Assembly: GCA_016844935.1 (NCBI GenBank)
Contig: JAERTK010000066.1
Span: 1-64,000 of the forward strand
Length of the DNA: 64,000 bases
From: Desulfobacteraceae bacterium
GTDB taxonomy: Bacteria > Desulfobacterota > DSM-4660 > Desulfatiglandales > Desulfatiglandaceae
Direction: 5' to 3'
In this document: positions 3,402-58,217 of the stretch, one piece after another
How the letters are laid out: each line of letters begins with the position of its first letter
Position numbering within the stretch: the stretch's first letter is position 1
Program-made: the position numbers and the translations under genes
Notes under the pieces: generated by a model
Seen by the model: the letters and a program-made list of their open reading frames with translations, nothing else
Databases searched by the model: none
What the model was told of the DNA's origin: nothing

Positions 3402-3432
3402 GGTCTTTCTCCAGATTAAAAAATTCTGAAAT

Positions 3433-3564
3433 CTAAAACAGGGTGTTATAAAGGATCAACGCCAGATACAGGGACCCCACCGTGATGGAGATATAAAATG
3501 CACCCTTGTATCCCGGTACCGGTTCATGGCTGAGTTCCATGATCTCTTTGTTGTCATCCGTCAT
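3433..3564 (-). CDS. 43-residue single-helix membrane protein
   Basis: A very small gene. ATG at 3564 is preceded by AGGAGCC at ideal spacing, and the frame ends with TAG at 3433. The product has an acidic N-terminal tail of about 14 residues (starting MTDDNKEIME) and one hydrophobic segment (residues about 20-42, AFYISITVGSLYLALILYN). It starts 10 bp after the stop of the 492-residue antiporter subunit and lies 31 bp before the 93-residue gene. The strong ribosome-binding site, the clean membrane topology and the lack of spare DNA on either side support a real gene. No family is recognised. It may stabilise the interface between antiporter-like subunits, which is inference. Confidence 0.68.
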   Translation of the reverse strand: MTDDNKEIMELSHEPVPGYKGAFYISITVGSLYLALILYNTLF

Positions 3565-39155: not shown

Positions 39156-40850
39156 TCAGGTATTTGCCGGCAAATCGCTCAGGATCAGATTGTGAGCCAG
39201 AACCGGATGCGAAAAACCCTTGATCTCAACCTCCCCTTTGGTTTCAAACTGGAAATCCCCTTTTACAAGTGCCCAGGTTGAATGGCTCACCAGAATGCCT
39301 TCGGGGTCGCAGATGCTTTCCAGGCGAGAGGCCAGGTTTACGTGCATTCCGAAGGCCGTATAATCTTTTCTGTTTTTAGACCCGAAGCCGCCCACGTTAA
39401 CCATGCCCGTGTTAATGCCGCACCGAACCTGCAAAGCTTGGGCAATCCCTTCATCGTACCATTTTTCTTTCAGCGCCCTCATTCGTTTCTGCATGGCCAC
39501 AGCCATTTGAACACAGCGCAGAGCATTGTCCGGATCCTTTCTTTTTTCCGGGGCGCCAAAAAAGATAAAGAGTTCATCCCCTTTCACATTGGCCACGACC
39601 CCGCCGTATTCATTTGCGATCTCGTACATCTCCGACAGGTATTCGTTCAACAGGTTTGCCATGTCCTCCGGCTCCATCTGCTCGGTGATGGTGGTGAAAT
39701 CCTTGATATCCGAAAAAAAGAGTGTCAGTCGCCGGCGCGAATAATCCCAGACATCATCGATCTCATCAGCCAGGATCCTCTCCGTCAACTGGGGCGGTAC
39801 ATATTTGGCCAGTAGCTTGTGGGCTCTGGCCACGGTTTCTTTTTCCTGTTCAAGGGCAAACGTCCGCTCTTCCACCAGCCTGGTTAAATTTTCCCGGTGG
39901 TACAGGTTGTCAAAAGCGATGGCCACATTTGAAAGAAAAATTTCAACGAGGTTCCGGTCTGTGGTGTTCACGGGCTGCTGGCTCTGAAGGTAGAGAATAT
40001 TTTCGATATTGTTATGGGTCTTGAAATAGCAAGCCACATTTCTTTCGTTGAAAATGCTCTGTTTCTGTAAAAGAACCTGAGTGATACTCTCATTGACATT
40101 TTCATCACCAAGATCCTTTACACACTGATCCAGATACTGCTCATATTGGCCCGTTCCCGCGATAATTTTGTAGTTTCCATGTTCCTGGGTTGCCGCAAAC
40201 CCGCAAGTCCCGTTTGACGCCTGCAACAGCAGTGAATTTTCTTCAAAGCCGAGCATGGCGGTCAACTGGGTCAGGACCCCAGCAGTAAACTGTTTGAGCG
40301 ACGTGAGTTTCAGCAGGCTTGAAGAGGCATGAATGATCATCTCAAGCCCCCTGCGATTCTTTTCGATCACCGTCATATCCCGATAAGAGCGCAGGGCCGA
40401 AGTGACCGTAGAAAAAAGCCGGTTGCTGGTCAGTTCTTCCTTGGTTTTGTAATCGTTGATGTCATAAGCGATAATGACCTTTTTTTCAGGTGCTTCCCCG
40501 GGCTGCCCCGTACGCAGGATGATACGGACAATTTTGTTTTTCAGTTCCTCCCGTATATGCTGCACCACCTCCAGCCCCGCGTGATCCGTTTCCATAACCA
40601 CATCCAACAGAATCACCGCGGTATCCGGATGTTCCACCATCAACTCTCTGGCCTCCTTTCCGGAATAGGCGCTCAAAAATTCAATGGTTCTGCCGTCAAA
40701 CTCATAGTCATCAAAAATCATGCGGGTCACATGATGAATATCTTCCACATCATCAACGATCATCATTTTCCACGGCGCTATGGTTTCGGTTTCCTCTTCA
40801 ACAACATCCTCTTCAAAAATCAGTTCATCACCGTTATCGATTATTGTCAT
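39156..40850 (-). CDS. REC-DUF3369-adenylate/guanylate cyclase
   Basis: A 564-residue cytoplasmic signalling protein. ATG at 40850 follows GGAGCAACCGG. The receiver domain (about 25-150) has VDDVEDIHH and LLDVVME. The DUF3369 sensor region (about 170-330) follows, then a short coiled coil and a class III nucleotide cyclase domain (about 365-540) with LFFSDIKDFTTITEQM, KGDELFIFFG and NTGMVNVGGFG. The metal-binding aspartates are present. The product (cAMP or cGMP) is probably made in response to phosphorylation. The adjacent giant kinase cassettes include histidine kinase domains that could feed it, but this is inference. Confidence 0.9.
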   Translation of the reverse strand: MTIIDNGDELIFEEDVVEEETETIAPWKMMIVDDVEDIHHVTRMIFDDYEFDGRTIEFLSAYSGKEARELMVEHPDTAVILLDVVMETDHAGLEVVQHIREELKNKIVRIILRTGQPGEAPEKKVIIAYDINDYKTKEELTSNRLFSTVTSALRSYRDMTVIEKNRRGLEMIIHASSSLLKLTSLKQFTAGVLTQLTAMLGFEENSLLLQASNGTCGFAATQEHGNYKIIAGTGQYEQYLDQCVKDLGDENVNESITQVLLQKQSIFNERNVACYFKTHNNIENILYLQSQQPVNTTDRNLVEIFLSNVAIAFDNLYHRENLTRLVEERTFALEQEKETVARAHKLLAKYVPPQLTERILADEIDDVWDYSRRRLTLFFSDIKDFTTITEQMEPEDMANLLNEYLSEMYEIANEYGGVVANVKGDELFIFFGAPEKRKDPDNALRCVQMAVAMQKRMRALKEKWYDEGIAQALQVRCGINTGMVNVGGFGSKNRKDYTAFGMHVNLASRLESICDPEGILVSHSTWALVKGDFQFETKGEVEIKGFSHPVLAHNLILSDLPANT

Positions 40851-40877
40851 TCCGGTTGCTCCATTAACCATTTTTAA

Positions 40878-40922
40878 CCCGGCAATGAATTGCCGGGCTA
40901 TTACCTGCCGTCCCCATGGGAC
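40878..40922. repeat. REP-like palindrome with companion palindrome (half island)
   Basis: CCCGGCAATgaATTGCCGGG at 40878-40897 is a perfect 9-bp palindrome with a 2-base centre. It is followed by CTATT and the companion palindrome GTCCC-cat-GGGAC at 40910-40922. The element ends 13 bp from the stop of the upstream ATPase gene, exactly as in the second cassette copy (48251 against 48264). Confidence 0.85.
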
Positions 40923-40934
40923 TTCTAATATTGC

Positions 40935-42551
40935 CTACATTCCCCATACCCATATTTCCCGGTTTTCAAATACCTTCTTCACTTGAAAGACCTTCTCATC
41001 CCACGAAACATCCGAACGGCGGTCAAAAACCACCAGATGCCCGTCTCTCGTCCCACACCGTTCCATGTACGCATGGGTCTGCTTCAGGCCCTCATCAATG
41101 GTGCGCTCAAGGCTCTTGTACAGAATTTTCAGTTCAATGACCACCTTCTGTACCGGTCCCTGCCAGCGTGTCCATGAAGGCTGCCCTTCAAGGGCCTTTT
41201 GAAGGGGCCAGAGCAACTGCAGATCGGTGCGCATCTTCCCCAACCCATATTCCCGTTCAATGCGACCGCCCGAATTAACGATCCGCTGCAAAAAGGCCTG
41301 CATGAGAAGCTGAGGACCAGCTTCCTTGTACTGAAAACGCTCGACCCAGCTTTCTGAGTGTTCCCGGAAAAACGCCTGGAAGGAGGATAACAGCTTCTTC
41401 GAATTCAACCGGCCATCGGCGTTCACATACCAGGAGGTCTGCTGACTTAATCCGTGCTGTGTGGTGTAGGTCAGGTTTCTCGGAATCACTTCCTTGTAGA
41501 TGGGGTTAGCGATGGCGATCTGTCCCCTGGTTGTAATCAGTCCCAAATCCTCCGCATATTCCACGTCGTCCAGGGGCAATTCCCGCGGATCGACCTTTCC
41601 GACCAGAACCGGTTCAATAACCCCCTGCACCCGTTTTTCCCGCAGCTTATCCGCCAACTGGTCCAGGTGGGTTTCACGGCGGGAAATGAGATTGTCTTTG
41701 GCCTGATCCACCGTATCCTTGTCGATGGTCCGTGACCGGTCCCGGCCTTCCTTCATTTTGAAACAACATTCATAGGCCAGCGCGTTCACCAGCCACGGTT
41801 GCCCGCGGGTCAAATACCAGATACAAGCCCCAGCTTCGGCGGTAAATTCCTGACCGGTATCATGGGTATGCTGTTCCAGGAGCGAATACACCTCCATGTC
41901 GATAAAATCCCCCATGCGGAGAGATTCCGCCTTAATGTTAAACGCACTGCCCCCGGTTATGATCTCTTTTTGACGGTTCGAGTGAATCCGATAATCCCGC
42001 ACATCCCGAACACCGCAAAGAATGATGGATTGGGGAAAATTGGCGGGTCGTCCGGTATAACCGGACCTGATCTGGCGCAGAAAAGAGATCAAAGTATCCC
42101 CGATAAGGCTGTCAACCTCGTCAAAAATGACCACCAGCGGTTTGTCGCATTCTTTGGCCCAGGCCCGAAGCGACATGGCAATGGCCGTCCCGGAAGCACC
42201 CGGCTCCAGAAATCGGCCTTTTTCATTTTCGAGAAAATCGTCATCGAGATACATCCGGGCCATGGCCGCCAGTTCGCGAACAATGTCTTTCATACCCTGA
42301 TCCACATTCTCCCGGGCCGCCTGTGCGGCTTCCACGTTGCAGTACACCGTTTTGAACTGACCCTTTCGGTTCAAATGTTTCATCAGGGCCAGCATGGAAG
42401 ACGTCTTTCCGGTCTGTCGTGGCGCATGCAAAACAAAATATTTTTCCTGAGCAATGAGGGTTTCAATCTCAGAAAGTTCAAACCTTTCCAGCGGCGGAAC
42501 ACAATAATGCTTCTCACAGTTGACCGGTCCGGCGGTATTGAAAAATCTCAT
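40935..42551 (-). CDS. AAA ATPase with PD-(D/E)xK-like C-terminus, cassette copy 1
   Basis: A 538-residue protein. The ATPase has Walker A APRQTGKTSSM (about residues 43-53) and Walker B LVVIFDEVDSL (about 137). The C-terminal region has VVIELKILYKS (about 472), followed by GLKQTHAYMERCG and GHLVVFDRR. This pattern (E-x-K and Q-x-x-x-Y) resembles the PD-(D/E)xK nuclease-like tail found in AAA-ATPase_like/DUF1703 proteins. Whether it cuts DNA is unknown. ATG at 42551 is 38 bp from the stop of the giant kinase gene, so the two genes form one unit. A near-identical copy lies at 48264-49883. Confidence 0.85.
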   Translation of the reverse strand: MRFFNTAGPVNCEKHYCVPPLERFELSEIETLIAQEKYFVLHAPRQTGKTSSMLALMKHLNRKGQFKTVYCNVEAAQAARENVDQGMKDIVRELAAMARMYLDDDFLENEKGRFLEPGASGTAIAMSLRAWAKECDKPLVVIFDEVDSLIGDTLISFLRQIRSGYTGRPANFPQSIILCGVRDVRDYRIHSNRQKEIITGGSAFNIKAESLRMGDFIDMEVYSLLEQHTHDTGQEFTAEAGACIWYLTRGQPWLVNALAYECCFKMKEGRDRSRTIDKDTVDQAKDNLISRRETHLDQLADKLREKRVQGVIEPVLVGKVDPRELPLDDVEYAEDLGLITTRGQIAIANPIYKEVIPRNLTYTTQHGLSQQTSWYVNADGRLNSKKLLSSFQAFFREHSESWVERFQYKEAGPQLLMQAFLQRIVNSGGRIEREYGLGKMRTDLQLLWPLQKALEGQPSWTRWQGPVQKVVIELKILYKSLERTIDEGLKQTHAYMERCGTRDGHLVVFDRRSDVSWDEKVFQVKKVFENREIWVWGM

Positions 42552-42589
42552 GGCACTGACCTCGCTTGTTTTTAAAGGCGCTCTGCTTG

Positions 42590-45500
42590 TTAGCTCATCG
42601 GGATACTCATTTGAATCATCATACCATTTCCAGGCTGACTCTCACATGAAATCTTCCCTTCAAGGGTTTGAGTCACCAGGTTGTGCACAATATGCATGCC
42701 CAGTCCGCTACCCCCCTGGGAGCGCTTGGTGGTGAAAAAGGGATCGAAGATTTTGGACAGGGTCTTTTCGTCCATTCCGTTACCATTGTCCCGGTAGGTG
42801 AGAATGACGGAACCGTTTTCCTCGACCGCATCAAAGATGATCTCACCCTCCCCTATTCCCTCAAACCCGTGAATCAGGGAATTCATCACCAGGTTGGAGA
42901 TGATCTGGGACAGCGCCCCGGGGAAGCTGTTGAGTGTAAGATCATCGGGGCAATTGACAGTCACCCGGTGTTGCGTCTTTTTGAGTTTGGGCTTCAGGCT
43001 CAGCAGCACGTCTTCGATGTAGGGTTTGAGCTTGAACTCCCGGCGTTCCCCGCTGGTCTGGTCCACAGCCACCTGCTTGAAACCCTGAACAATTTTGACC
43101 GCCCCGCTCAGATTCTTCAAAATCAGGCTAGAGGAATCGGCGGCGGTTTTGGCGTAGCTGTCCAGCTCCGAACGTTTGAGCTTTTTGGATTCCACCTTTT
43201 TTACGAATCCCCCTGTTTTGTCTCCCAGGTGGGAGGCGGCGCTCACCGCTATCCCGATGGGGGTGTTGATCTCGTGGGCCACGCCCGCCACCAGGCCGCC
43301 AATGGCCGCCATTTTCTCGGACTGGACCAGCTGCTCCTGGGTCTTTTCAATGGTGTCGAGGGACTGTTTCAGCTCCCGGGTTCGCTCCTGGACAGTTTCC
43401 TCCAGTTTTTCCGCATAGTCCTGCTGCTGCTTGTAGAGGTTGGCGTTCTCCAGAGAGATGGCTGCCTGGGAGCAGAGGAGATTCAGGACTTCCAGTCGCT
43501 CTTGGGTAAAAGCGCCGGTGGCCAGGTTGTTTTCGAGATAGATGATACCGCTCACATTCTTTTGATGGATCAGGGGGGCGCAGAGGGTAGATTTGGGCTG
43601 ATGGTTGATGATGTAGGGATCGGTGGTGAAATCGCCCTTTTGGGCTGCGTCCTCCAACACCAGGTTTTCCTTTGTTCGTGCCACATACTGAATGATGGCC
43701 CCCGGCACCTGCTGCGCATCCTCAACGGGGATGGATTGAAGCACCTGGATTTTGTCCTGGTGAATATCCCCTTCGGCTTCAATGAAAAAATCCTCTTCTG
43801 ATTTCAAAATCAGGCTTCCTTTTTCGGCACCGGCATTCTCCAGGATGATCCTCATCATGCGGGATAGTAGCTTTTCAATTTCGATTTCGCCGGATATCAC
43901 CTGGGAGGCTTTCATGACGGATGCCAGGTCCAGCTGTTCGCTTTTGACCGGGCCTGTGCTGGTGGAAGTTTTTAAGGGGTCGGCTTTCGCGGTCTTTTCC
44001 ATCACTTCATCCTCCCTCGGCTGTTTCAAATCCTCTGCCAGCAGTTCCGGGTAGTTCTGATCCAGATGGTCCACCTTTGCCTTGGCGCCCCAATGGTCGT
44101 AGCAATACCGGGCCTGCTTCATGTATTTTCGGGCTGTCTCAATTTCCCCCTTTGTCTGACAAAATTTCGCGGCCAGTTCATTGGCCAGGGCTTCTTCCTG
44201 AATATAGAGGTTTTCCTTGGCACCGACAATGGCCTGGTCGTAAAGGCCTTTGGCTTTTTCGCCCTTGCCCAGCACCCTCGCCTTTTCGGCTTCCACCAAT
44301 TGCCATTTATGGAGGTAGTTCATGGGAGCGTGATACGCCCATTTTTTCATTTTTTTCTGGCTCTTTGTCACTTTTCGGAGAATGTACCTTTTTTTAATCT
44401 TTGGGCTTTCAGGAAACAGAGCTAAATGGGCTAGGGAGTTGTAGAAATGAAAAACGGGAACTTCAATTTGGGATATTAGACTGTTCAGATGCTTTTCTGC
44501 GATTGCGGCATTTTCGACAGCTTCACCATATTCTCTGAATAAATAGCATAGGAGTAATTTTTCTAAATATAAAGCACAAATTCCTGACCTGTCGTTTGCA
44601 TTTAAGTAACGTTTATACATCTCTTTTTCATCACAAATATCACCAGTAATTGTTGTAGTATTCTCGCTGCGACCCATCAAATTCAATATCATTTGCCAGA
44701 GCCGTTCGTTGTGATAAAGCCATGTTTGATGTTTCAATTTCTTGATGCTTTCATTATATTTGGATATTTTTCGCTTTAATTTTGATAGCTCTATTCCAGC
44801 AAAATAGGAATAATATGAGTACACAAATGCACAAGCCCCTCCATTTTCAAAATCTCCAGTTTCAAGTCCTTTTTTGAATCCTGTTTCAAATGGTTTTAAT
44901 GTTTCCCTAATGTGTTTTTTCCAATGTGCAATGAAACAATTAAACACGAATAACGTGCCTGCTTCGAATGACTTTACATTGAGTGTTTTTGATAATCGTA
45001 ATGCCAGCTTTCCAAATTCGAAACCTGTTCTTATATCTCCAATGCCTCCACACAGGAGTAATCCATACCCATTATAGGCAATAATTGATTTTGTCGAATT
45101 ACCATTTTTGATTGATAAAGTTACTGCTTGAAAAGGAAGAAATGGTAAAAGTTCAGGAGCAGCGAAATAAACAGGATGGCCCATAATTGCAAGAATACCC
45201 ATCTCGGCAAGTTTATAAGAATTAGTCATTTTTTGCAGATTGACCAATAAAGCCACTTCTTTTCCGCCCAAAACGAGCTTTGTCCGTAGATAGGCAAACA
45301 TAATATGAAATTTGTTTGGTTTTTCAGGGAACCTCACACCTAATAGCTTCAAAACATGAAGACCTGTCTTCACCGCATCGAGCAGCCTATATTGCGACGT
45401 GTAGGCTTGAATTCTTATCTCATAAATCTTTATCTTATCCAGAACGGTTTTGGCTTTCTGCAAAACCGTCTCCGCCAAATCATCCATCTCTTTATGGCTG

Positions 45501-47959
45501 CCGCATAGATAAGCTGCTTCAGCTGCCTCCTCATGAAGAGCCAAAGTTAAACCGTATTGTTCCTTCCAGCTGTTTTCGTAGAGCAAATAAATTCCAAACT
45601 TCAGGTATTCAAACGCCGGCAAAAACGCCGCAGACAACTTCGCTTTTTTTCCAGCAATTAGGTTGAGGCGGACAAGTTCCTCCCGTTCAGCTTCATCCAT
45701 CATCAAATCAGCTCCCAAATTGAGCTGATCAAGCACCACAAAAATGTGTTCTTCAAATTTCTCTTCGGAAATGCTTTTCAGCATCTCCCGGCCGATCTTG
45801 AGATGCACTTCGGGTTTCTTTTCATCTTTAAGCAAGGAATAGGCGACCTGCTGAACCCGGTCATGGAGAAATGCATATGTAGGGGATTGAGTGCCTGGTT
45901 CGTGTTCTTCTTCCGATGGAATAACCTTAGGAATTCCAATAACATACTTGTACGAATCATCCAGCGGCAACACTAGTTCCTCACGCAGGGCTTCGAAGAG
46001 GTCTCGGGCAGTTTCTGAAACCGTTTTCCCATAGACGGTCGAAAGCAAGTTCAAATCAAATCGGTTGCCGATACAGGCGGCCAGGCTCAACAGATGGGTG
46101 GCTTTTTCAGGCAATCCCTTTATACGGGTTATCATTAGATCGACAACATTATCGGTAGTATCAGCCTGACGAATTTTTTCTTCATCCCACCGCCAGGCAC
46201 CTTTCTCATGGCTAAAAGCCAGCAATCCATCGCGATACAGAGAATGAATAAACTGGTTCAAAAAGAAGGGATTGCCGAGAGTCTTTTCAAAGCACAACCT
46301 GGCTAGACCTTTGGTTTGTTCCGTATCACAGGAAAGAGTCTGTGTCAGAAGCTGGTTCACATGGTCTTCTTTCAGCTGATCCAGCAAAACGGTTTCAATC
46401 TCCGCACCGCCTTTTTGAATTTCCTCCAGCGCAAAGGTAAGCGGGTGAGCTGAATCCACTTCATTGTCCCGATAAGCTCCGATCAGAAAGAGATATTCCG
46501 TTTGAGCGGTGATGAACATCTCAATGAGTTTGAGGGATGCGGCATCGGCCCATTGGAGATCATCCAGGAAGATAATCAGCGAATGTTCTTTTGCGGCAAA
46601 GATTCGAATAAAATTCTCAAACACATAGTTGAAGCGGTTGATGTTCTCCACCGGACCCACGGTGGGGATTTCGGGCTGGGTGCCGATAATCAGTTCCAGC
46701 TCCGGGATAACCTCGATCATCACTCGGCCGTTGGGGCCCAGGGCCTTTAACAGTTTTTCCTTCCAAATGAATACTTCCGCATCACTTTCCGCCAGAATCT
46801 GCCGAATCAATTCCTGAAAGGCGTGAATCAAGGGGGCGTAAGGGACATTTTTTTTGAGTTGGTCAAACTTTCCCGAGATGAAATACCGTTTCTGATCTGT
46901 CAAGGGGCTTTTCAGAATGGCGCTTTGCACTTCACGCACCAGGGCCGATTTGCCAATCCCCGCGGGACCCGTTACCAACACCGTTTTGCAGGCGCCGACA
47001 CTCACCTGTTCAAAACCCTTGAGCAGCGTTTCAATCTCCGCTTCCCGGCCATAAAGCTTTTGGGGAATTTGGAGGCGGTCTGAAATATCCTTTTGTGCGA
47101 TTTCAAATGAATCGATGCGGCCGGATGCCGAAAACCGGTCCGAACACTCTTTGAGATCCTGCAAAATCCCCAAAGCACTCTGATACCGGCCTTCGGCATC
47201 TTTTGCCATGAGCTTCAAAATGATGTCCGATAGAACGGGTGGGATATCTTCGTTGATTTCATGGGGCGGTTCCGGCATCAACGCCATATGGGCATGGACC
47301 AGTTCAAGGGGTTCCGTGGCCTCAAAGGGGAGCCTTCCGGTGAAGAGTTCATAAAGGGTGACCCCCAGGGAATAGAAGTCCGTTCGCCAGTCCACCATGC
47401 GGTTCATGCGGCCCGTCTGCTCAGGGGACATGTAGGGGAGGGTTGCGGTCATAAGCATGGCTGTTTCAACGGTGGGGTTTTCACGGGAGATAATGCCGGC
47501 TGAGCTGAAATCGATGAGTTTTAGCATTCCGGTTTCAGGGTTAAAAAGGATGTTGGCGGGCTTGATGTCTTTGTGGACAATACGCATTTGATATATCTGC
47601 TTAAGGGCTGACGCGGTCTTCACCGCAATATCCAGGGCCTGGAGCAAATCCAAAGAATCGGAGTTGATCAGACTCCTGAGGTCAACGCCGCCCATCTCTT
47701 CCAATACCAGATACGGCCGGTGGTCGTGTTCCACCAAATCCAGAACATGAACCACGTGCGGGGCCTGCTCGGTCTTAATGGATTGCAATATCCGGTATTC
47801 ATGTCGGTAGCGGGCGACCTGACCGGGGGTCGGGTGCCTGGTGGCCGTGGTTTTGAGGATGACCGGCCGGTTGTCATGTTTCCTCACAGCACGAAAAACA
47901 TGCGTGTTTGATCCTACCTGAATCGTACTGCTCCAATCAAAACCTGATAATTGCAACAT
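42590..47959 (-). CDS. Giant Ser/Thr kinase-AAA-GAF-histidine kinase, cassette copy 1
   Basis: A protein of 1,789 residues of the HstK/PknD-like trifunctional type. ATG at 47959 matches the start of the paralogue; the upstream frame reads only through a palindromic repeat. Residues about 8-265 are a Ser/Thr kinase with catalytic loop HKDIKPANILF, and DFS in place of DFG. An AAA_16-type ATPase follows, with GPAGIGKSALVRE at about 331. A long helical, TPR-like region covers about 700-1300 and is AT-rich in its centre. Then come a GAF domain (about 1340-1500), HisKA with GVAHEINTPIGI (about 1560) and HATPase_c with DNGNGM and GGSGLGMHIV. No membrane helix is evident. Signal and targets are unknown. 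Confidence 0.9.
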   Translation of the reverse strand: MLQLSGFDWSSTIQVGSNTHVFRAVRKHDNRPVILKTTATRHPTPGQVARYRHEYRILQSIKTEQAPHVVHVLDLVEHDHRPYLVLEEMGGVDLRSLINSDSLDLLQALDIAVKTASALKQIYQMRIVHKDIKPANILFNPETGMLKLIDFSSAGIISRENPTVETAMLMTATLPYMSPEQTGRMNRMVDWRTDFYSLGVTLYELFTGRLPFEATEPLELVHAHMALMPEPPHEINEDIPPVLSDIILKLMAKDAEGRYQSALGILQDLKECSDRFSASGRIDSFEIAQKDISDRLQIPQKLYGREAEIETLLKGFEQVSVGACKTVLVTGPAGIGKSALVREVQSAILKSPLTDQKRYFISGKFDQLKKNVPYAPLIHAFQELIRQILAESDAEVFIWKEKLLKALGPNGRVMIEVIPELELIIGTQPEIPTVGPVENINRFNYVFENFIRIFAAKEHSLIIFLDDLQWADAASLKLIEMFITAQTEYLFLIGAYRDNEVDSAHPLTFALEEIQKGGAEIETVLLDQLKEDHVNQLLTQTLSCDTEQTKGLARLCFEKTLGNPFFLNQFIHSLYRDGLLAFSHEKGAWRWDEEKIRQADTTDNVVDLMITRIKGLPEKATHLLSLAACIGNRFDLNLLSTVYGKTVSETARDLFEALREELVLPLDDSYKYVIGIPKVIPSEEEHEPGTQSPTYAFLHDRVQQVAYSLLKDEKKPEVHLKIGREMLKSISEEKFEEHIFVVLDQLNLGADLMMDEAEREELVRLNLIAGKKAKLSAAFLPAFEYLKFGIYLLYENSWKEQYGLTLALHEEAAEAAYLCGSHKEMDDLAETVLQKAKTVLDKIKIYEIRIQAYTSQYRLLDAVKTGLHVLKLLGVRFPEKPNKFHIMFAYLRTKLVLGGKEVALLVNLQKMTNSYKLAEMGILAIMGHPVYFAAPELLPFLPFQAVTLSIKNGNSTKSIIAYNGYGLLLCGGIGDIRTGFEFGKLALRLSKTLNVKSFEAGTLFVFNCFIAHWKKHIRETLKPFETGFKKGLETGDFENGGACAFVYSYYSYFAGIELSKLKRKISKYNESIKKLKHQTWLYHNERLWQMILNLMGRSENTTTITGDICDEKEMYKRYLNANDRSGICALYLEKLLLCYLFREYGEAVENAAIAEKHLNSLISQIEVPVFHFYNSLAHLALFPESPKIKKRYILRKVTKSQKKMKKWAYHAPMNYLHKWQLVEAEKARVLGKGEKAKGLYDQAIVGAKENLYIQEEALANELAAKFCQTKGEIETARKYMKQARYCYDHWGAKAKVDHLDQNYPELLAEDLKQPREDEVMEKTAKADPLKTSTSTGPVKSEQLDLASVMKASQVISGEIEIEKLLSRMMRIILENAGAEKGSLILKSEEDFFIEAEGDIHQDKIQVLQSIPVEDAQQVPGAIIQYVARTKENLVLEDAAQKGDFTTDPYIINHQPKSTLCAPLIHQKNVSGIIYLENNLATGAFTQERLEVLNLLCSQAAISLENANLYKQQQDYAEKLEETVQERTRELKQSLDTIEKTQEQLVQSEKMAAIGGLVAGVAHEINTPIGIAVSAASHLGDKTGGFVKKVESKKLKRSELDSYAKTAADSSSLILKNLSGAVKIVQGFKQVAVDQTSGERREFKLKPYIEDVLLSLKPKLKKTQHRVTVNCPDDLTLNSFPGALSQIISNLVMNSLIHGFEGIGEGEIIFDAVEENGSVILTYRDNGNGMDEKTLSKIFDPFFTTKRSQGGSGLGMHIVHNLVTQTLEGKISCESQPGNGMMIQMSIPMS

Positions 47960-47994
47960 CTGCCACCCTGTTTCTAGAATGTCTGTTTTCCTGG

Positions 47995-48251
47995 TTGTCC
48001 TGTAGGGACAATCGAAAATAGCCCGGCAATTCATTGCCGAGGTCACGTTATCACACCATTTTCAAAGTCCCATCGGGACGACACAAAGCGTAGCCGCTTT
48101 TTCAATGGGTCCACATGAACCCTTTTCAAAATAAAACAATTAACAAATCCCCTTTCGTCAATATCTCTGCCGTCCCTACGGGACTACGTCTCTGGCTTGA
48201 ATCTATCCCGGCAATGAATTGCCGGGCTATTGCCTTTCGTCCCCGCGGGAC
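47995..48251. repeat. Composite palindromic (BIME-like) island
   Basis: An island of about 257 bp filling the gap between the second ATPase gene and the first giant kinase. In order it has TTGTCC/GGACAA (47995-48011), a REP core with one mismatch (48022-48041), GTCCC-atc-GGGAC (48067-48079), GTCCC-tac-GGGAC (48172-48184), a perfect REP core (48207-48226) and GTCCC-cgc-GGGAC (48239-48251). The two REP cores with their companions are in opposite orientation, so the island is itself an inverted repeat. The left edge is 35 bp from the ATG of the giant kinase. Confidence 0.85.
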
Positions 48252-48263
48252 TTCACACACCGC

Positions 48264-49883
48264 CTACATCCCCCAAACCCTTATTTCCCGGCCTTCAAAG
48301 CGCTTTTTCTCCTGAAAAATCTTCTCGTCCCACGAAACGTCTGAACGACGGTCAAAGACCACCAGATGGCCGTCTGAAGTGCCGCACCGGTCCATATACG
48401 CATGGGTCTGCTTCAGGCCCTCATCAATGGTGCGATCAAGGCTCTTGTACAAAATTTTAAGTTCAATAACAATTTTTTGAACCGTTCCCTGCCAGCGGGT
48501 CCAGGGAGGTCGACCTTCAGGGGCCTGTTCAAGGGGCCAGAGCAGCAGAAGATCGGTGCGCATTTTCCCGAGACCGTATTCACGTTCAATGCGACCGCCT
48601 GAATTGACAACCCGCTGCAAAAAGGCCTGCATCAGGAGTTGGGGGCCAGCTTCTTTGTATTGGAACCGCTCCAACCAGATCTCAGAATGTTCCCGGAAGA
48701 ACTCCTGGAAAGCGGATAACAGCTTGTCCACATCCAGGCGGCCGTTTTCCTGAACATACCAGGCTTGATCATACCGGGCTTCCAGGTTCATCTGCTCACT
48801 GACCGTCAGTTCCCTTGGGATAACCTCGGCGTAGATGGGGTTGGCAATGACCGGACCCTGTTTCGTTCTCCGAATCAACCCCAGATCCTCCACGTACTGA
48901 ATGTCATCCAGGCGCACATTCAAATCCCGCCCCTGAAGCATGGGGCTGATGACCCGCCGCACCCGCTCTTCCTGAAGTTTATCCGCCAGTTGGTCCAGGT
49001 GTGTATCACGCCTGGCGATGAGATTATCCTTTGCTCGATCCACCATATCCTTGTCGATGGCCCGCGAACGATCCCGGCCTTCCTTTATCCTGAAACAGGT
49101 TTCATAGGCCAGGGCATTCACCAACCAGGGCTGGCCACGGGTGAGATGCCAGATACACGCTTTGGCTTCTGAAGTAAATTTCTGCTCCGTATCCAGCGTA
49201 TGCTGCTCCAGCAACGTGTACACTTCAGGCTTTATGAAATCACCCATCCGAAGGGATTCCGCTTTTATATTAAAAGCGCTGCCTCCGGTGATGATCTCTT
49301 TTTCACTGCTTGCGTGGATGCGGTAGTCCCGAACATCCCGAATACCACACAGGATTATGGATTGGGGAAATGAGGCCGGTCGCTGGTTATAGCCTGATCT
49401 GATTTGCCGTAGAAAAGAAATCAGGGTATCCCCTACCAGGCTATCCACTTCATCAAACATCACCACAAGCGGTTTATCACATTTTTCCGCCCATGCTCGA
49501 AGCGACATGGCGATAGCTGTACCATAACCGCCCGGCGCCAGAAATTGATCACGTTGTTCCTCAAGAAATTTATCTTTCAGGTAAATACGGGCCATGGCTC
49601 CCAGTTCACGAACAATATCGTTCATGGCCTGTTCCACATTCTCTCGAGCCGCCTGCGCCGCCTCCACATTGCAGTACACCGCTTTGTATTGACCTTCACG
49701 ATTCAGATGTTCCATCAAGGCCAGCATAGACGACGTCTTTCCCGTCTGCCTGGGCGCGTGCAGAACAAAATACTTTTTCTGTACCAGAAGCATTTCCATT
49801 TCTGCTAGGTCAAAGCGCTCAAGCGGCGGCAGGCAGTAATGGTCCTCACAGTTGACCGGTCCGGCAGTGTTGAAAAATCTCAT
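48264..49883 (-). CDS. AAA ATPase with PD-(D/E)xK-like C-terminus, cassette copy 2
   Basis: A 539-residue paralogue of the protein at 40935-42551, very similar along its full length. ATG at 49883 is aligned with the other copy and follows AGGTGA. Walker A is APRQTGKTSSM, Walker B LVVMFDEVDSLVGD. The C-terminal motifs IVIELKILYKS and GLKQTHAYMDRCG are kept. The most different part is around residues 325-385, before the nuclease-like region. Unlike copy 1, it is separated from its giant kinase partner by 537 bp that contain a palindromic island, so the two may no longer be co-translated. Confidence 0.85.
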   Translation of the reverse strand: MRFFNTAGPVNCEDHYCLPPLERFDLAEMEMLLVQKKYFVLHAPRQTGKTSSMLALMEHLNREGQYKAVYCNVEAAQAARENVEQAMNDIVRELGAMARIYLKDKFLEEQRDQFLAPGGYGTAIAMSLRAWAEKCDKPLVVMFDEVDSLVGDTLISFLRQIRSGYNQRPASFPQSIILCGIRDVRDYRIHASSEKEIITGGSAFNIKAESLRMGDFIKPEVYTLLEQHTLDTEQKFTSEAKACIWHLTRGQPWLVNALAYETCFRIKEGRDRSRAIDKDMVDRAKDNLIARRDTHLDQLADKLQEERVRRVISPMLQGRDLNVRLDDIQYVEDLGLIRRTKQGPVIANPIYAEVIPRELTVSEQMNLEARYDQAWYVQENGRLDVDKLLSAFQEFFREHSEIWLERFQYKEAGPQLLMQAFLQRVVNSGGRIEREYGLGKMRTDLLLLWPLEQAPEGRPPWTRWQGTVQKIVIELKILYKSLDRTIDEGLKQTHAYMDRCGTSDGHLVVFDRRSDVSWDEKIFQEKKRFEGREIRVWGM

Positions 49884-50092
49884 GGAAGTCACCTCAATGT
49901 ATTCACTGGGAAAATGTCAAAACCTGTAAATTCAGGCGTATTCAATACATCATTTGACATAACAATTCGTAACAGTTCACAGTTTACAGTTGCCGATTTC
50001 CGGTAAAAAAGCAGGAAATAATACAAAATTTTCTTAAGGTTAAGTTAAAAACCTATAAACCGCAACGGATACAACCATGGTTTTCTGTTTAT

Positions 50093-50343
50093 GTCTCGTA
50101 GAGACGATTGATAATAGCCCGGCAATTTATTGCCGGGATTAGATGACCATGCGATTTCTTCAGTCCCATCGGGACGACAGAAAAAAGAACGCCGCGTTCG
50201 AAATTCCCATATCCGCATTTACATCAAACGATTCCTCCCACCCATTGTTTTTCAACTCTGCCGTCCCTACAGGACTGATTGCGTTTGTTTGAATCCATCC
50301 CAGCAATAAATTGCCGGGCTATTTTCGGTTGTCCCTACGGGAC
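50093..50343. repeat. Composite palindromic (BIME-like) island inside cassette 2
   Basis: An island of about 250 bp within the 537-bp gap between giant kinase 2 and its ATPase. It has GTCTC-gta-GAGAC (50093-50105), a perfect REP core with centre TT (50118-50137), GTCCC-atc-GGGAC (50163-50175), GTCCC-tac-AGGAC (50263-50275), a REP core with one mismatch (50299-50318) and GTCCC-tac-GGGAC (50331-50343). The layout is the same as in the other two large islands. The rest of the gap (49884-50092) is AT-rich and shows nothing I can name. Confidence 0.85.
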
Positions 50344-50420
50344 AGGCAGCATGACTTTCATGGACGTCTTTTCATGTGAGAAAAGCTTCCAGCATCGACC
50401 ATCGCTACATGTCCTCGTTC

Positions 50421-53400
50421 TCACAGGGGAATTCTCATCGTAACCATTATCCCCTCCCCCGGCTTGCTCTCACTGGAAATCGTGCCTCCCAGGGTCTGAG
50501 TGACCAGGTTATGCACAATGTGCATCCCCAGGCCACTCCCACCTTGAGAACGTTTGGTGGTAAAGAAAGGATCAAAAATTTTTGTCAGATCTTTTTGATT
50601 CATCCCCTTGCCATTGTCCCGGTAGGAGAGGTTAACAAATCCATTTTCCCGGGTCGCATCAAAGAGGATTTCCCCTTTTTCCGTCTCCTCAAATCCGTGA
50701 ATCAATGAATTCATGACCAGGTTTGTGATAATCTGGGAAAGGGCGCCGGGGAAGCTGTTCAATGTCAGATCATCCGGACAGTTGACGGTGATTTCGTGTC
50801 GGGTCTTTTTGAGCTTCGGCTTCAGGCTCAACAGCACATCTTCAATATAGGCCTTGAGTTTGAACTCCCGACGTTCCCCGCTGGTTTGATCCACGGCCAC
50901 CTGCTTGAAACCCTGAACAATTTTGACCGCGCCGCTCAGGTTCTTGAGAATCAGGTTGGAGGAATCGGCGGCGGTCTTTGCGTAGCTGTCCAGCTCGGAA
51001 CGTTTGAGCTTTTTGCTCTCCACTTTTTTCACGAATTCCCCAGTTTTATCTTCCAGGTGGGATGCGGCGCTCACGGCGATGCCGATGGGGGTATTGATTT
51101 CATGGGCCACCCCTGCCACCAGTCCACCGATGGCGGCCATCTTCTCGGACTGGACCAGCTGATCCTGGGTCTCTTGAATGGTTTCAAGGGATTGCTTCAG
51201 TTCGGATGTTCTTTCTTCGACCGTTTCTTCAAGGGTTCCGGCATAATCCTGTTGCTGTTTGTAAAGGTTTGCGTTTTCAAGGGAGATGGCAGCCTGGGAG
51301 CAGAGGAGCGCCAGGACCTCCAAGCGTTCTTCGGTGAAAGTCCCGGTTGCCAAGTTGTTTTCAAGATAGATGATACCGCTTAAATTCTTCTGGTGGATCA
51401 ATGGGGCACATAACACCGATTTGGGCTGGTGTTGAGTGATATAAGGATCCGTTGTGAACTCCCCCTGGTGGGTTGCGTCGTCAAAAACAAGATTTTCCTT
51501 CGTCCGGGCCACATACTGGATGATGTTCCCAGGCACCTGGGGAGCGGTTTCGATGGGGATGGACTGAAGCACCTGAACCTTCTCCTCATGGATATGCCCT
51601 TCGGCCTCAATCCGGAAATTCCCGGTTGATTTCAGGATCAGGCATCCCTTTTCAGCGCCCGCATTTTCAAGGATGATCCGCATCATGCGGGAGAGGAGTT
51701 TTTCAATCTCGATTTCTCCTGATATCACCTGCGAGGCTTTCATGACGGAAGCCAGATCGAGCTGTTCGCTTTTGACCGGACCGGTGCTGGTGGAAGTTTT
51801 TGAGGGGTCGGCTTTCGCGTGCTTTTCCATCATGTCATCCTCCAGTGGTTGGTCCAGGGCATCCGCCAGAAGTTCCGGATAGTTTTGATCCAGATGATCC
51901 ACTTTTGCTTTGGCGCCCCAGTGGTCATAGCAGTACCGGGCTTGTCTCATGTATTTTCGCGCTGTTTCGGTCTCCCCCTTTGTCTGATAAAATTTCGCTG
52001 CCAGTTCATTGGCCAGAGCTTCCTCCTGGATGTACAGGTTTTCTTTGGCACCAGCGATGGCCTGGTCGTACAGGCCTTTCGCTTCTTCATCTTTGCCCAG
52101 TACCCTCGCCTTTTCGGCTTCCACCAGCTGCCATTTGTGGAGATGGTTCATAGGCGCGTGATGCGCCCATTTTTTCATTTTTTTCTGGTTTTTAGCGACT
52201 TTTCGAAGGCCAGACTTTCGCTTGGTTCTTGGTATTTCGGAAAAAAACGCCAATTGGGCCAACGAATCGTAGAAATGGAAAATAGGGATCGTTATTATAG
52301 AAATGTGGCCATGCGATACCTTTTCTGCACTCGCTACATTTTCGATTGCTTTAGCGTATTCTTGAAATAAATAACAAAGGATAAGTTTATCTAAGTGCAG
52401 TCCAAATATTCCACCTGTATCATTTTCATTTTGATAAGTTTCAAGCAATTTTTTTTCATTGCTAACATCACCCGTTACATTTACAGGATTTTCGCTGTAG
52501 CCTCTCAAGTTTGATATTTTTTGCCAGGTTTCTTGACTATAGTTAAAACATGTTTTTTGTTTTAACGCTTTGTTTACATTGAAGCAATTTATTATCCGTT
52601 GTTCTACTTGTGATAATTCTTCACCAGCAAAAAAGGAAAAATATGAGTAGAAATATTTGCTAAGGGTACCATATTCGAAATCTCCGGTTTCAAGCCCTTT
52701 CTGAAATCCTATCTCGAACGGTTCTAATGTTTCCCTTAAGTGTTTTTTCCAGTGTTTAATGCAAGCATTGAAAACATATAGCGTCTTCGCTTCACAAGAT
52801 TTAGCATTGTGTTTCCCTGATAAGCGAAATGCCAGTTTCCCAAATTCGAAACCGGATTTTATATCCCCGGTGACTCCACAGAGAATCAATCCATATCCGT
52901 TATAGAAAAGAATTGAATTTGGAATATTACCGTGTTTAATTGATACATTTAAACCTTTAAAAATAATCAACGGTAGCATCTGGGGGGCTGCAAAATATAC
53001 AGAGATGCTCATACTCGTGAGAATACGCATTTGAGCAAGATGATAAGGATCAGTCATTTCCGGTAGGTTTATTAAATCATCCGAGCTTTTTCCAATTAAA
53101 GCGAATTTTGTTCGGAGATATGCAACTAGAACATGTAATTTCTTCGGTTTTTGTGGAAAGCTAACGCCCAAAAGCCTTAAGACATGGAGACCACATTGCA
53201 CAGAATCCATTAGTTTATGTTGGGACATAAAGGCGCGAATCTTCGTTTCATAAACATTTATCTTGTCCAGTATTGTTTTAGAATTCCGTAAAACTGCTTC
53301 AATCCGCTTCTCCATCTCCTTGAAACTTCCGCAGAGATAGGCAGATTCTACAGCTTCCTCATGAAGAGATAAAGTTAGTTCATACTGCATCTCCCATCCA

Positions 53401-55787
53401 TTTTCCTGAAACAGACTGATGCCGGATTTCAGGTAATCAAAAGCCGGTTCAAACGCCGCGGACAACTTGGCCTTTTTACCGGCAACCAGATTCAGTTCCG
53501 CCAGCTTTTCTTTTTCCATTTTCACCGTCATCAGTTCAGAACCCAGATTGAGCTGATCAACAATGGCAAAAATTTGCTCCTCAAGTTGATCTTCCGAAAT
53601 GGTTTTCAGCATCTCCCGGCCGATCCTGAGATGCACTTCCGATTTCTCTTTTTCTTCAATCAGCGAATAGGCGGCCTGCTGCACCCGGTCGTGCAGGAAA
53701 CCGTACAAGGGAAATGGTTCACCATGACCGGCATCGCTTTCAGATGTAACCGGTTGTAACGGCTTAGTAACATATTTGTAGGCATCATCCATGGGCAGCA
53801 CCAGTTCCGCCTGCAAGGCCTCGAACAAGTCATCTGCTGTCTTTTGAACCGTTTTACCATAAACAGTGGAGAGGATATTCAGATCGAATTGATTTCCGAT
53901 ACAGGCGGCAAGGCTTAAAAGATGGCTGGTATTTTCTGATAATCCGCGAATTCTACCGATCATCAGATCAACCACATTGTCCGTAATATCAGCTTGTCTG
54001 ATTTTCAACTCATCCCACTGCCAGATGCCTTTTTCCGCGCTGAATTCAATCAAACCATCTCGGTGAAGAGAATGGATGAACTGGTTCAAAAAGAAGGGAT
54101 TGCCGAGGGTCTTTTCAAAACACATCCGGGCCAAGAGCTTGGACCGTTCCGGGTCGCAGGAAAGGGTCTCAGACAGGATCTGGTTCACATGGTTTTCTTT
54201 CAGCTGTTCCAGTTGAACGGTTTCTACTTCCGCTCCGCTTTTATGAATTTCTTCCATTGCAAAGGTCAACGGATGTGCCGCATCCACTTCATTATCCCGG
54301 TAAGCGCCGATCAAGAAGAGATACTCGGTCTGAACAGTGATGAACATCTCAATCAGTTTAAGAGATGCGGCATCCGCCCACTGAAGATCATCCAGAAAAA
54401 TAACCAGGGGGTGATCTTGGGCGGCAAAGGTCTTGATGAAATTTTCAAAAACATAGTTGAAGCGGTTGATGTTCTCCATCGGTCCCACGGTGGGGATTGC
54501 GGGCTGGGGGCCGATGATCAGTTCCAGCTCGGGGATAACCTCGATCATCACTCGGCCGTTGGGGCCCAGGGCCTTTAACAGCTTTTCCTTCCAAATGGAT
54601 ACTTCCGCATCACTTTCCGCCAGAATCTGCCGAATCAATTCCTGAAAGGCGTGAATCAAGGGGACGTAAGGGACACTTTTTTTGAGTTGGTCGAATTTTC
54701 CCGAGATGAAATATCGTTTTTGATCTGTCACGGGGCTTTTCAGAATGGCGCTTTGCACTTCACGCACCAGGGCCGATTTTCCGATGCCCGCCGGACCCGT
54801 TACCAACACCATTTTGCAGGCGCCGACACTCGCCTGTTCAAAACCCTTGAGCAGCGTTTCAATCTCCGTTTCCCGGCCATAGAGTTTCTGGGGAATTTGG
54901 AGGCGGTCCGAAATATCCTTTTGTGCGATTTCAAATGAACCGATGCGACCGGATGCCGAAAACCGATCTGAACACTCTTTGAGATCCCGCATAATCCCCA
55001 AAGCACTCTGATACCGGCCCTCGGCATCTTTGGCCATGAGTTTGAAAATGATGTCCGACAAAACGGGGGGGATATCTTCGTTTCTTTCATGGGGCGGTTC
55101 CGGCATCAACGCCATGTGGGCATGGACCAGTTCCAGGGGATCGCTAGCGTCAAAAGGAAGCCGGCCGGTAAACAGCTCATACAGGGTGACCCCAAGGGAA
55201 TAGAAGTCCGTGCGCCAGTCCACCATGCGGTTCATGCGGCCGGTCTGCTCGGGGGACATGTAAGGGAGGGTAGCGGTCATGAGCATGGCGGTTTCAACGG
55301 TAGGGGTTTCGCGGGAGATGATGCTTGCCGAACTGAAATCGATGAGCCTCAAGTCGCCGTTTTCGGGGTTAACCAAAATGTTGGCGGGTTTGATATCTTT
55401 GTGGATGATATTTTCCTGATAGATTTCCCCAAGGGCAGAAGCAGTCTTGACGGCGATATCCAAAAGCTGTTTCAAATCGAAGGGGCCGGAGCTGAGCAGG
55501 TTTCTGAGATCCACACCGCCCACATCTTCCATCACCAGGTACGGCCGATGGTCGTATGAAAACAGATCCAGCGCTTGGATCACATGCTTTGCCGTCTCCT
55601 GTTTCAGGGAATTCAGAACATGGTATTCATGCCGGTATCGGGCCACCTCATTGGGGGATGGGTGGGCGGTTGCGGTGGTTTTGAAAACTACCGGCTGATT
55701 GTCATGTTTTCTTACAGCGCGAAAAACATGGGTGTTTGTTCCTTCGTATAATGTACCAACCCTAGAAAAATCTGATAATTGCGACAT
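50421..55787 (-). CDS. Giant Ser/Thr kinase-AAA-GAF-histidine kinase, cassette copy 2
   Basis: A 1,788-residue paralogue of the protein at 42590-47959 with the same domain order: Ser/Thr kinase (catalytic loop HKDIKPANILV at about 135, DFS motif), AAA ATPase (GPAGIGKSALVRE at about 330), TPR-like helical core, GAF (about 1340-1500), HisKA (GVAHEINTPIGI, about 1560) and HATPase_c (DNGKGM, GGSGLGMHIV). The kinase, ATPase, GAF and histidine kinase parts are nearly identical to copy 1. The core from about residue 810 to 1200 (DNA 52200-53350) is AT-rich and clearly diverged, which suggests that the two copies receive different inputs. It is the first gene of the cassette region. Confidence 0.9.
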   Translation of the reverse strand: MSQLSDFSRVGTLYEGTNTHVFRAVRKHDNQPVVFKTTATAHPSPNEVARYRHEYHVLNSLKQETAKHVIQALDLFSYDHRPYLVMEDVGGVDLRNLLSSGPFDLKQLLDIAVKTASALGEIYQENIIHKDIKPANILVNPENGDLRLIDFSSASIISRETPTVETAMLMTATLPYMSPEQTGRMNRMVDWRTDFYSLGVTLYELFTGRLPFDASDPLELVHAHMALMPEPPHERNEDIPPVLSDIIFKLMAKDAEGRYQSALGIMRDLKECSDRFSASGRIGSFEIAQKDISDRLQIPQKLYGRETEIETLLKGFEQASVGACKMVLVTGPAGIGKSALVREVQSAILKSPVTDQKRYFISGKFDQLKKSVPYVPLIHAFQELIRQILAESDAEVSIWKEKLLKALGPNGRVMIEVIPELELIIGPQPAIPTVGPMENINRFNYVFENFIKTFAAQDHPLVIFLDDLQWADAASLKLIEMFITVQTEYLFLIGAYRDNEVDAAHPLTFAMEEIHKSGAEVETVQLEQLKENHVNQILSETLSCDPERSKLLARMCFEKTLGNPFFLNQFIHSLHRDGLIEFSAEKGIWQWDELKIRQADITDNVVDLMIGRIRGLSENTSHLLSLAACIGNQFDLNILSTVYGKTVQKTADDLFEALQAELVLPMDDAYKYVTKPLQPVTSESDAGHGEPFPLYGFLHDRVQQAAYSLIEEKEKSEVHLRIGREMLKTISEDQLEEQIFAIVDQLNLGSELMTVKMEKEKLAELNLVAGKKAKLSAAFEPAFDYLKSGISLFQENGWEMQYELTLSLHEEAVESAYLCGSFKEMEKRIEAVLRNSKTILDKINVYETKIRAFMSQHKLMDSVQCGLHVLRLLGVSFPQKPKKLHVLVAYLRTKFALIGKSSDDLINLPEMTDPYHLAQMRILTSMSISVYFAAPQMLPLIIFKGLNVSIKHGNIPNSILFYNGYGLILCGVTGDIKSGFEFGKLAFRLSGKHNAKSCEAKTLYVFNACIKHWKKHLRETLEPFEIGFQKGLETGDFEYGTLSKYFYSYFSFFAGEELSQVEQRIINCFNVNKALKQKTCFNYSQETWQKISNLRGYSENPVNVTGDVSNEKKLLETYQNENDTGGIFGLHLDKLILCYLFQEYAKAIENVASAEKVSHGHISIITIPIFHFYDSLAQLAFFSEIPRTKRKSGLRKVAKNQKKMKKWAHHAPMNHLHKWQLVEAEKARVLGKDEEAKGLYDQAIAGAKENLYIQEEALANELAAKFYQTKGETETARKYMRQARYCYDHWGAKAKVDHLDQNYPELLADALDQPLEDDMMEKHAKADPSKTSTSTGPVKSEQLDLASVMKASQVISGEIEIEKLLSRMMRIILENAGAEKGCLILKSTGNFRIEAEGHIHEEKVQVLQSIPIETAPQVPGNIIQYVARTKENLVFDDATHQGEFTTDPYITQHQPKSVLCAPLIHQKNLSGIIYLENNLATGTFTEERLEVLALLCSQAAISLENANLYKQQQDYAGTLEETVEERTSELKQSLETIQETQDQLVQSEKMAAIGGLVAGVAHEINTPIGIAVSAASHLEDKTGEFVKKVESKKLKRSELDSYAKTAADSSNLILKNLSGAVKIVQGFKQVAVDQTSGERREFKLKAYIEDVLLSLKPKLKKTRHEITVNCPDDLTLNSFPGALSQIITNLVMNSLIHGFEETEKGEILFDATRENGFVNLSYRDNGKGMNQKDLTKIFDPFFTTKRSQGGSGLGMHIVHNLVTQTLGGTISSESKPGEGIMVTMRIPL

Positions 55788-55821
55788 CTGTCACCCTGCT
55801 CTTATAATGTCCGGTTTCCTG

Positions 55822-56112
55822 GTTGTCCTGTAGGGACAACCGATAATAGCCCGGCAATTTATTGCCGGGTTTTGGTCAATTTATTGACCCGGGTTTGCAA
55901 TTCATTGTCGAAATTGTTAAATGCGGTTTTGAAAATCCCATCGGAGCGACAGAAGGAAACATTGGACTCGAATCTGGCCATCAAATTTTCCATGACCCGG
56001 TTTCAGACCCGCTATTTTCAAGATCTCTGCCGTCCCTACGGGACTAATGTCCTTTGCTTGCGTTTATCCCGGCAATGAATTGCCGGGCTATTATCTCCCG
56101 TCCCTACGGAAC
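55822..56112. repeat. Composite palindromic (BIME-like) island upstream of giant kinase 2
   Basis: An island of about 290 bp between giant kinase 2 and the RAYT gene. It has GTTGTCC/GGACAAC (55822-55840), a perfect REP core (55850-55869), a variant palindrome GGTCAAT-tt-ATTGACC (55874-55889), a degenerate companion near 55936, GTCCC-tac-GGGAC (56032-56044), a second perfect REP core (56068-56087) and a companion with one mismatch (56100-56112). The left companion begins 35 bp from the kinase ATG, the same distance as in copy 1. Confidence 0.85.
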
Positions 56113-56169
56113 TGATTCTCTACCTGAAACCACCGCCGGAATTTCAACCCATTCACCACACGGATTATT

Positions 56170-56622
56170 TCAAACCCACATATATCGTTCATCATAAACA
56201 ACCTCGTTTTTCTTCAAAAAACCAATGAATTCATTTTTAAACGATTTATGTCGATGATGAACAGGCTGGTTTTGGATATAGCGGATGGTATCCTGTAAAA
56301 TTGAAATACTGACGCTGAACGCGCCATAACCCTTTTGCCATGAAAAAGGGTTCGAGGTCTTAAAAGTGTCATTGATCCATTTTGAGGAATTCCCCTTAAT
56401 GCTTTGAATCGCTTTGGATATGGATAGGGTGGCAGGCAAGGATAAGAGAACGTGAACATGATCCGGCATACCCCCTACCACCAGAGCCTTCATATTGTTT
56501 TGCCTTACAACACCGCCCATATAGGACCATAAACGATCTTGTATTTCAGGAACGATCAAGGGAAGGCGTTCTTTCGTGCTGAAAATATAATGAATGTAAA
56601 GGCTGGTATAGGTGTTTCCCAC
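56170..56622 (-). mobile_element. REP-associated tyrosine transposase (RAYT, IS200/Y1 family) gene
   Basis: A 150-residue Y1-type transposase. GTG at 56622 follows AAGGAA; TTG at 56640 is an alternative. The HUH motif is in GMPDHVHVLLSLP (about residue 56) and the probable catalytic tyrosine in DTIRYIQNQ (about 118). LYIHYIFSTKERLPLI at the N-terminus is typical of the Y1_Tnp family. It stands alone without flanking insertion-sequence ends and is bracketed by REP-like palindromes at 56068-56112 and 56668-56802. That is the typical setting of RAYT proteins, which bind and cleave REP hairpins as single strands. It is intact and may be active. Confidence 0.88.
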
Positions 56623-56667
56623 TGGTGATTCCTTTTCCAACGATAAATTGTCAGACTATTATCTATC

Positions 56668-56802
56668 GTCCCGATGGGACTAAAACATTCGCGGGCACAT
56701 CAAAGCCCGGCAATGAATTGCCGGGCTATTTTCTATCGCCCCAATGGGGCTCATGCAGTCCCATCGGGACGGCAGATAATAGCCTGGGGTTTCAACCCCA
56801 GG
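56668..56802. repeat. REP-like palindrome cluster upstream of the RAYT gene
   Basis: Five palindromes in 135 bp: GTCCC-gat-GGGAC (56668-56680), a perfect REP core CCCGGCAATgaATTGCCGGG (56706-56725), GCCCC-aat-GGGGC (56738-56750), GTCCC-atc-GGGAC (56758-56770), and a sequence variant with the same 9-2-9 geometry, CCTGGGGTTtcAACCCCAGG (56783-56802). The last begins 2 bp after the stop of the next gene and could also act as its terminator hairpin. Confidence 0.85.
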
Positions 56803-56803
56803 T

Positions 56804-58090: not shown

Positions 58091-58217
58091 GGTTCGAAGC
58101 CTAACACCCGTTCCAGGAGCTGTCAATCCATTTTCAGATGGTTAACTTGCATCGCTAGACAAAAACAACCCCGGTAATTTTCAGGGAAAATCTTACCGAA
58201 TTTTGAGATAATACTGA

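Follow-up and report, generated by a model that had tools for sequence, protein, structure and literature searches.

The tandem array of giant kinase and ATPase genes in the 64,000-nt stretch of DNA analyzed here (the window) most probably originated from a kinase-response regulator locus (probability of roughly 0.7), in which the segment carrying the kinase gene acquired the ATPase gene and was then duplicated in tandem between mobile palindromes. The giant kinase (K) and the ATPase (A) are themselves not standing partners. The window belongs to an assembly of 6.1 Mb in 342 contigs, with estimated completeness of 98.99% and contamination of 7.35%. On its minus strand the gene order is K2, A2, K1, A1, i.e., two K-A units arranged head to tail. 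K2 (50421-55787, minus strand) encodes a predicted dual Ser/Thr-His kinase of 1788 aa, in which the Pfam domains Pkinase and AAA_16 are followed by a helical region and by GAF, HisKA, and HATPase_c; K1 (42590-47959, minus strand, 1789 aa) is the second copy. A2 (48264-49883, minus strand, 539 aa) encodes an AAA+ ATPase (AAA_35, among other Pfam families) with a putative C-terminal PD-(D/E)XK domain, and A1 (40935-42551, minus strand, 538 aa) is its duplicate. The start of A2 was set at the ATG that opens the conserved MRFFNTAG, nine bases after the GTG of the open reading frame list, and that of K1 at the ATG homologous to the start of K2 instead of the listed GTG at 48046, which lies within a palindrome island. 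The copies align end to end, with protein identities of 76% (K1 and K2) and 77 to 78% (A1 and A2). Gene calls and identities confirmed two successive copies of a kinase-plus-ATPase unit, as described in a first-pass annotation made from the sequence alone, and the Pfam matches (Pkinase, AAA_16, GAF, HisKA/HATPase_c) support the domain make-up that it gave for the kinase. An asymmetry absent from that annotation concerns the intergenic regions: K1 and A1 are separated by 38 bp, and the 537-bp gap between K2 and A2 contains a third palindrome island (50092-50349) with no counterpart between K1 and A1.

Alignment of the two units placed both limits of the homology within palindromes. It starts at the left palindrome unit (40876-40922; positions 40876/48205) and stops in the right palindrome island (55819-56113; positions 48252/56113), with unrelated sequences outside. 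The kinase ATG lies 36 bp from the TGTCC..GGGACA palindrome and the ATPase stop codon 12 bp from the GTCCC..GGGAC palindrome in both copies, so the equal spacing noted at first pass (35 and 13 bp) holds with a shift of one base. The middle island (47991-48255) is a composite. Its distal part is 78% identical to the island upstream of K on the right over 54 aligned bases, and the sequence past its palindrome matches that downstream of A on the left. The left flank aligned with the distal part at 54%, as in shuffled sequences, i.e., without a match. This composition is as predicted for the fusion of the K-upstream island, at the palindrome, to the A-downstream sequence. The middle island is thus a palindrome-palindrome join-point, a known route to tandem duplications, and both the homology ends and this join agree with the earlier suggestion that the duplication unit extends from one palindromic island to the next.

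The duplication is old, as indicated by synonymous divergence of 1.0 to 1.3 (dN 0.15 and dS 1.04 for K1/K2; dN 0.15 and dS 1.31 for A1/A2), and the low dN relative to dS indicates purifying selection on all four genes. K codons 301 to 400 (about 54590-54890 in K2 and 46760-47060 in K1) depart from this pattern with a dS of 0.16, compared with 1.04 overall, suggesting that K1 and K2 later underwent gene conversion. Divergence of the two kinases is also uneven by region: their kinase, AAA, and histidine kinase parts are mostly 80 to 94% identical, and the helical middle 51 to 66%. A helical region diverged to this extent would fit two sensors with different inputs.

Next to the right island, the window encodes a Y1 transposase (IS200-like, RAYT/TIRYT-type) that had been overlooked (56170-56640, minus strand; 156 aa; HUH motif DHVHVLL; PF01797, E = 2e-28). 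Its gene is flanked on one side by the right island and on the other by palindromes at 56636-56805, the same palindromes as those at the limits of the duplicated unit. The window contains 10 palindrome matches versus 0.6 expected from shuffled sequence, and the core palindrome has 10 exact copies in the 6.1-Mb genome, 6 of which lie in the window; the remaining exact copies adjoin unrelated genes on three contigs. Two further Y1 genes of this genome (∼39% identical) are accompanied by different palindromes, on both sides in contig C190 and on one side in C80. The palindromes of the array thus belong to the neighboring IS200-like transposase. This arrangement, a PF01797 transposase between inverted palindromes, is that of RAYT/REP systems. 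However, such systems comprise more than 100 REPs with a GT(A/G)G head; only 10 exact core copies were found in the 6.1 Mb, and the listed palindrome copies share no GTAG/GTGG foot. Because of the low copy number and the GTAG head not being seen, we do not class the elements as a strict RAYT/REP system. A tie to the CGTC-tagged REPs, which have been reported without a dedicated transposase (PMC3733652), was considered since the GTCCC palindromes are often preceded by C, but it was dropped because GTC is part of the stem here.

The same palindrome family is represented at other sites of this genome and by one copy in a same-genus genome. The latter copy (L115, G001:C116) and a copy of this genome (L103, G000:C236, 9849) apparently occupy the same insertion site, with matching flanking bases; if the site is common, the palindromes would predate the split. 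At another locus (L102, G000:C93), two direct copies of the palindrome unit (3390-3473 and 5242-5324) with similar upstream flanks, 1852 bp apart, enclose a DUF1016-like gene (named by sequence alone) and possibly delimit another palindrome-bounded segment. Beyond the transposase, the palindromes of its outer flank adjoin another AAA gene (AAA_14 plus DUF4143; 56804-58126).

K1 and K2 share the Pfam order Pkinase, AAA_16, GAF, HisKA, HATPase_c, with HisKA under the curated cutoff and HATPase_c well over it. The sequence carries HKDIKPAN, has DFS where DFG is usual, and contains AHEINTP and the N/G boxes. K2 is 37 to 43% identical, over 99 to 100% of its length, to several cyanobacterial plasmid proteins annotated as "ATP-binding sensor histidine kinase." The domain order that defines the cyanobacterial cbSTKIII proteins (N-terminal Ser/Thr kinase, GAF, C-terminal His kinase; PMC2176072) and full-length homology to cyanobacterial members were both found. 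By sequence, K is a member of these dual Ser/Thr-His kinases (e.g., HstK), with both kinase activities predicted. Matches of K in the defense library (PADLOC) to PD-T4-6, mad6, and PglW spanned the generic protein kinase domain only; the MADS6 model scored 122 against a cutoff of 460, and the TOMM kinase/cyclase fusion model (TIGR03903) 100 bits against 705.75. Neither K nor A gave a specific match, beyond a generic domain, to a known antiphage system.

The A proteins matched AAA families in Pfam and have a subthreshold PDDEXK_3 tail, in which D444, E474, K476, and Q492 are invariant across 15 aligned A homologs. The full-length model resembled AAA+ proteins such as RuvB, Orc1/Cdc6, and an archaeal Walker-type ATPase, at modest confidence (pTM 0.40). 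The C-terminal model (pLDDT 85, pTM 0.83) presented the core order of the PD-(D/E)XK fold, and its best structural matches were mostly nucleases of that superfamily: Wolbachia Cif nuclease-like domains, McrC, BamHI, Hjc, and PaqCI. Structural Z values near 8 are modest on their own; what counts is that nearly all top matches belong to one family, taken together with the invariant motif. Motif and model thus back the PD-(D/E)xK-like tail of the first-pass annotation, and A is most readily described as an AAA+ protein with a C-terminal PD-(D/E)XK domain, invariant D/ExK/Q residues, and predicted nuclease activity. Searches with A yielded only matches at E values of at least 0.002 in the defense library, no match in PHROGs, and nothing significant among PDB sequences; viral contigs searched with the A alignment held no relatives, which leaves no phage link.

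The distribution of A is that of a wandering gene. Relatives occur in Desulfobacterota (the closest by sequence), Chloroflexi, Latescibacterota, methanogens, and cyanobacterial plasmids, and in places A genes stand in tandem with one another (four copies in L042, for instance). The same-genus genomes searched held no A, save one distant relative (26% identical). From these patchy phyla, plasmids, and separate arrays, with near-absence in the same genus, we infer that A is a mobile, separately moving gene. This genome also encodes a distant A paralog (L005, G000:C31:123-1661; 25% identical), with a similar gene in the same-genus genome G001 (L037). In two of the A arrays (L042:8691-14609 and L050:1-2522), identity varies sharply along the protein, suggestive of recombination among A copies in other genomes.

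The first-pass annotation had proposed kinase and ATPase as a signaling or defense module, adding that their functional link would be unlikely if the genes were never adjacent in other genomes. A survey of both genes found no such pair. None of 15 A loci had K beside A: 13 loci from Desulfobacterota, Chloroflexi, Latescibacterota, and methanogens, with A relatives 53 to 64% identical, and two cyanobacterial plasmid loci, a contig end hiding one side in a few of them. Likewise, A was missing from all 24 K loci, of which those of the nearest K relatives lie on short contigs with some neighbors beyond the contig ends, and from the whole of 19 other K-bearing genomes of the phylum. Five of 11 A-bearing genomes carry K, never seen adjoining A.

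A different neighbor recurs beside K. Directly downstream of the array, the minus strand encodes a response regulator with REC, DUF3369, and class III nucleotide cyclase domains (39156-40871; Pfam DUF3369 and Guanylate_cyc), which is the only DUF3369 protein found in this genome. Three other loci encode, next to K, REC proteins 52 to 55% identical to the REC part of this regulator; the part was assigned by this similarity, the Pfam receiver model being under threshold. The receivers form a subtype with the motif IILRTGQPGxAPE, fused to GGDEF in two genomes of one other genus of the same phylum, where they precede K by 11 bp, and to a histidine kinase in Nostoc (C057), 26 bp after K; besides the lineage studied, this amounts to only two independent lineages. 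Other K genes adjoin other response regulators. No receiver of this subtype was found near A in any A locus. Its recurrence beside K, and never near A, suggests that K signals via the regulator to a cyclic nucleotide, and makes the REC-DUF3369-cyclase the likely signaling partner of K, as judged from gene neighborhoods. Two other candidates were discarded: DUF3369 is not a general K neighbor, since the other loci have only the REC subtype in common, and the Nostoc "ATP-binding protein" after K is not an A homolog, its translation being a REC-histidine kinase.

These data can be accommodated in a single scheme. The helical and GAF regions of K would sense an internal signal, and K would autophosphorylate on its histidine kinase part. 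Phosphotransfer to the REC-DUF3369-cyclase of the downstream gene would follow, and this regulator would then make a cyclic nucleotide; the Ser/Thr kinase domain would provide a second output. A, as a separately moving gene, would have lodged between K and the regulator, and the K-A segment would have been duplicated when two palindrome islands recombined or a template switch occurred between them. The location of A1 only 38 bp after K1 and purifying selection on both A copies weigh against this scheme, and A may have gained a role in the operon. Taken further, the same features could describe a lineage-specific signaling or defense module, with K as the sensor of stress or infection and the ATPase/nuclease A as the effector that it activates: the genes adjoin in both units, were duplicated together, are both under purifying selection, and preserve the nuclease active-site motif of A. 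We regard this as unlikely, given that the adjacency was found nowhere else, that the defense library matches are confined to a generic kinase domain, and that the response regulator is the better-conserved neighbor of K. It is quite doubtful, too, that all three proteins form one pathway, with the dual kinase and the cyclic nucleotide controlling an AAA+/PD-(D/E)XK effector and the palindrome-driven duplication yielding two sensors with diverged helical regions.

Other alternatives concern the duplication itself. An already duplicated block could have arrived by horizontal transfer instead of being duplicated in this species, a possibility with some substance but the less probable course of events. 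The copies are 23 to 24% diverged in protein, with dS of at least 1, and the same-genus genomes searched have no close A and no K match; loss in sister species is equally possible, however, and the palindrome family, with copies at other sites of this genome and one in a same-genus genome, is native to the lineage. It is highly improbable that the palindromes act solely as terminators or regulatory hairpins and were uninvolved in the duplication. They are intergenic and, as inverted repeats, would fold as RNA hairpins, but the homology ends and the join-point all fall inside them, and the same palindromes flank the transposase gene. Duplication of the K-A segment between mobile palindromes, in a locus where K is coupled to a response regulator, is therefore the reading we retain. 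It corrects a tempting interpretation, in that co-duplicated neighbors need not be functional partners, and it presents an old, maintained duplication of large signaling genes whose two ends and join all lie at palindromes of an IS200-like transposase. The adjoining receiver subtype, with its varying output domains, is a candidate partner for dual Ser/Thr-His kinases, which are themselves poorly understood. This recurring receiver beside K is the most useful new point, K, A, and the duplication process being otherwise of known kinds.

In the cbSTKIII family, K shares with its relatives the N-terminal Ser/Thr kinase, the GAF domain, and the C-terminal histidine kinase, and the alignment with them covers the whole protein, AAA region included (PMC2176072). 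Besides HstK/Alr2258, the family includes Alr0709/Alr0710, a co-transcribed, iron-responsive tandem pair (75% similar) described as a gene duplication (PMC2176072). The duplication studied here differs in taking in a second, unrelated gene (A), in being bounded by palindromes, and in adjoining a regulator with a DUF3369-cyclase output. A has no family name but is related to known AAA+/PD-(D/E)XK architectures. DUF1703 proteins, which combine AAA-ATPase_like and PDDEXK_9 (PMC1913061), likewise have an N-terminal AAA+ part with a degenerate Walker A region, a helical middle, and a C-terminal PD-(D/E)XK nuclease with motifs II and III and the motif IV glutamine. Unlike them, A is below the thresholds of PF09820 (E = 0.072, in A1 only) and of PF08011, which was not found. 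The inverted palindromes around the Y1 gene and their scattered intergenic copies, densest near the transposase, resemble RAYT/REP and TIRYT/TIR systems (PMC2817692, PMC3733652); the palindromes studied here differ in numbering only about a dozen in the genome and in lacking the canonical GTAG/GTGG head. With few copies and long repeats, the system is nearer the TIRYT kind. Finally, palindrome-bounded duplication is an already known process. A 1990 paper by Shyamala et al., cited in PMC7661048, names in its title a role of REP sequences at tandem duplication join-points. REP junctions are common in E. coli amplifications (PMC3161906), and the join-point of the K-A array likewise lies within a REP-like element; unlike those REP-mediated duplications, which were freshly formed in the laboratory, the one described here is ancient and has been maintained.
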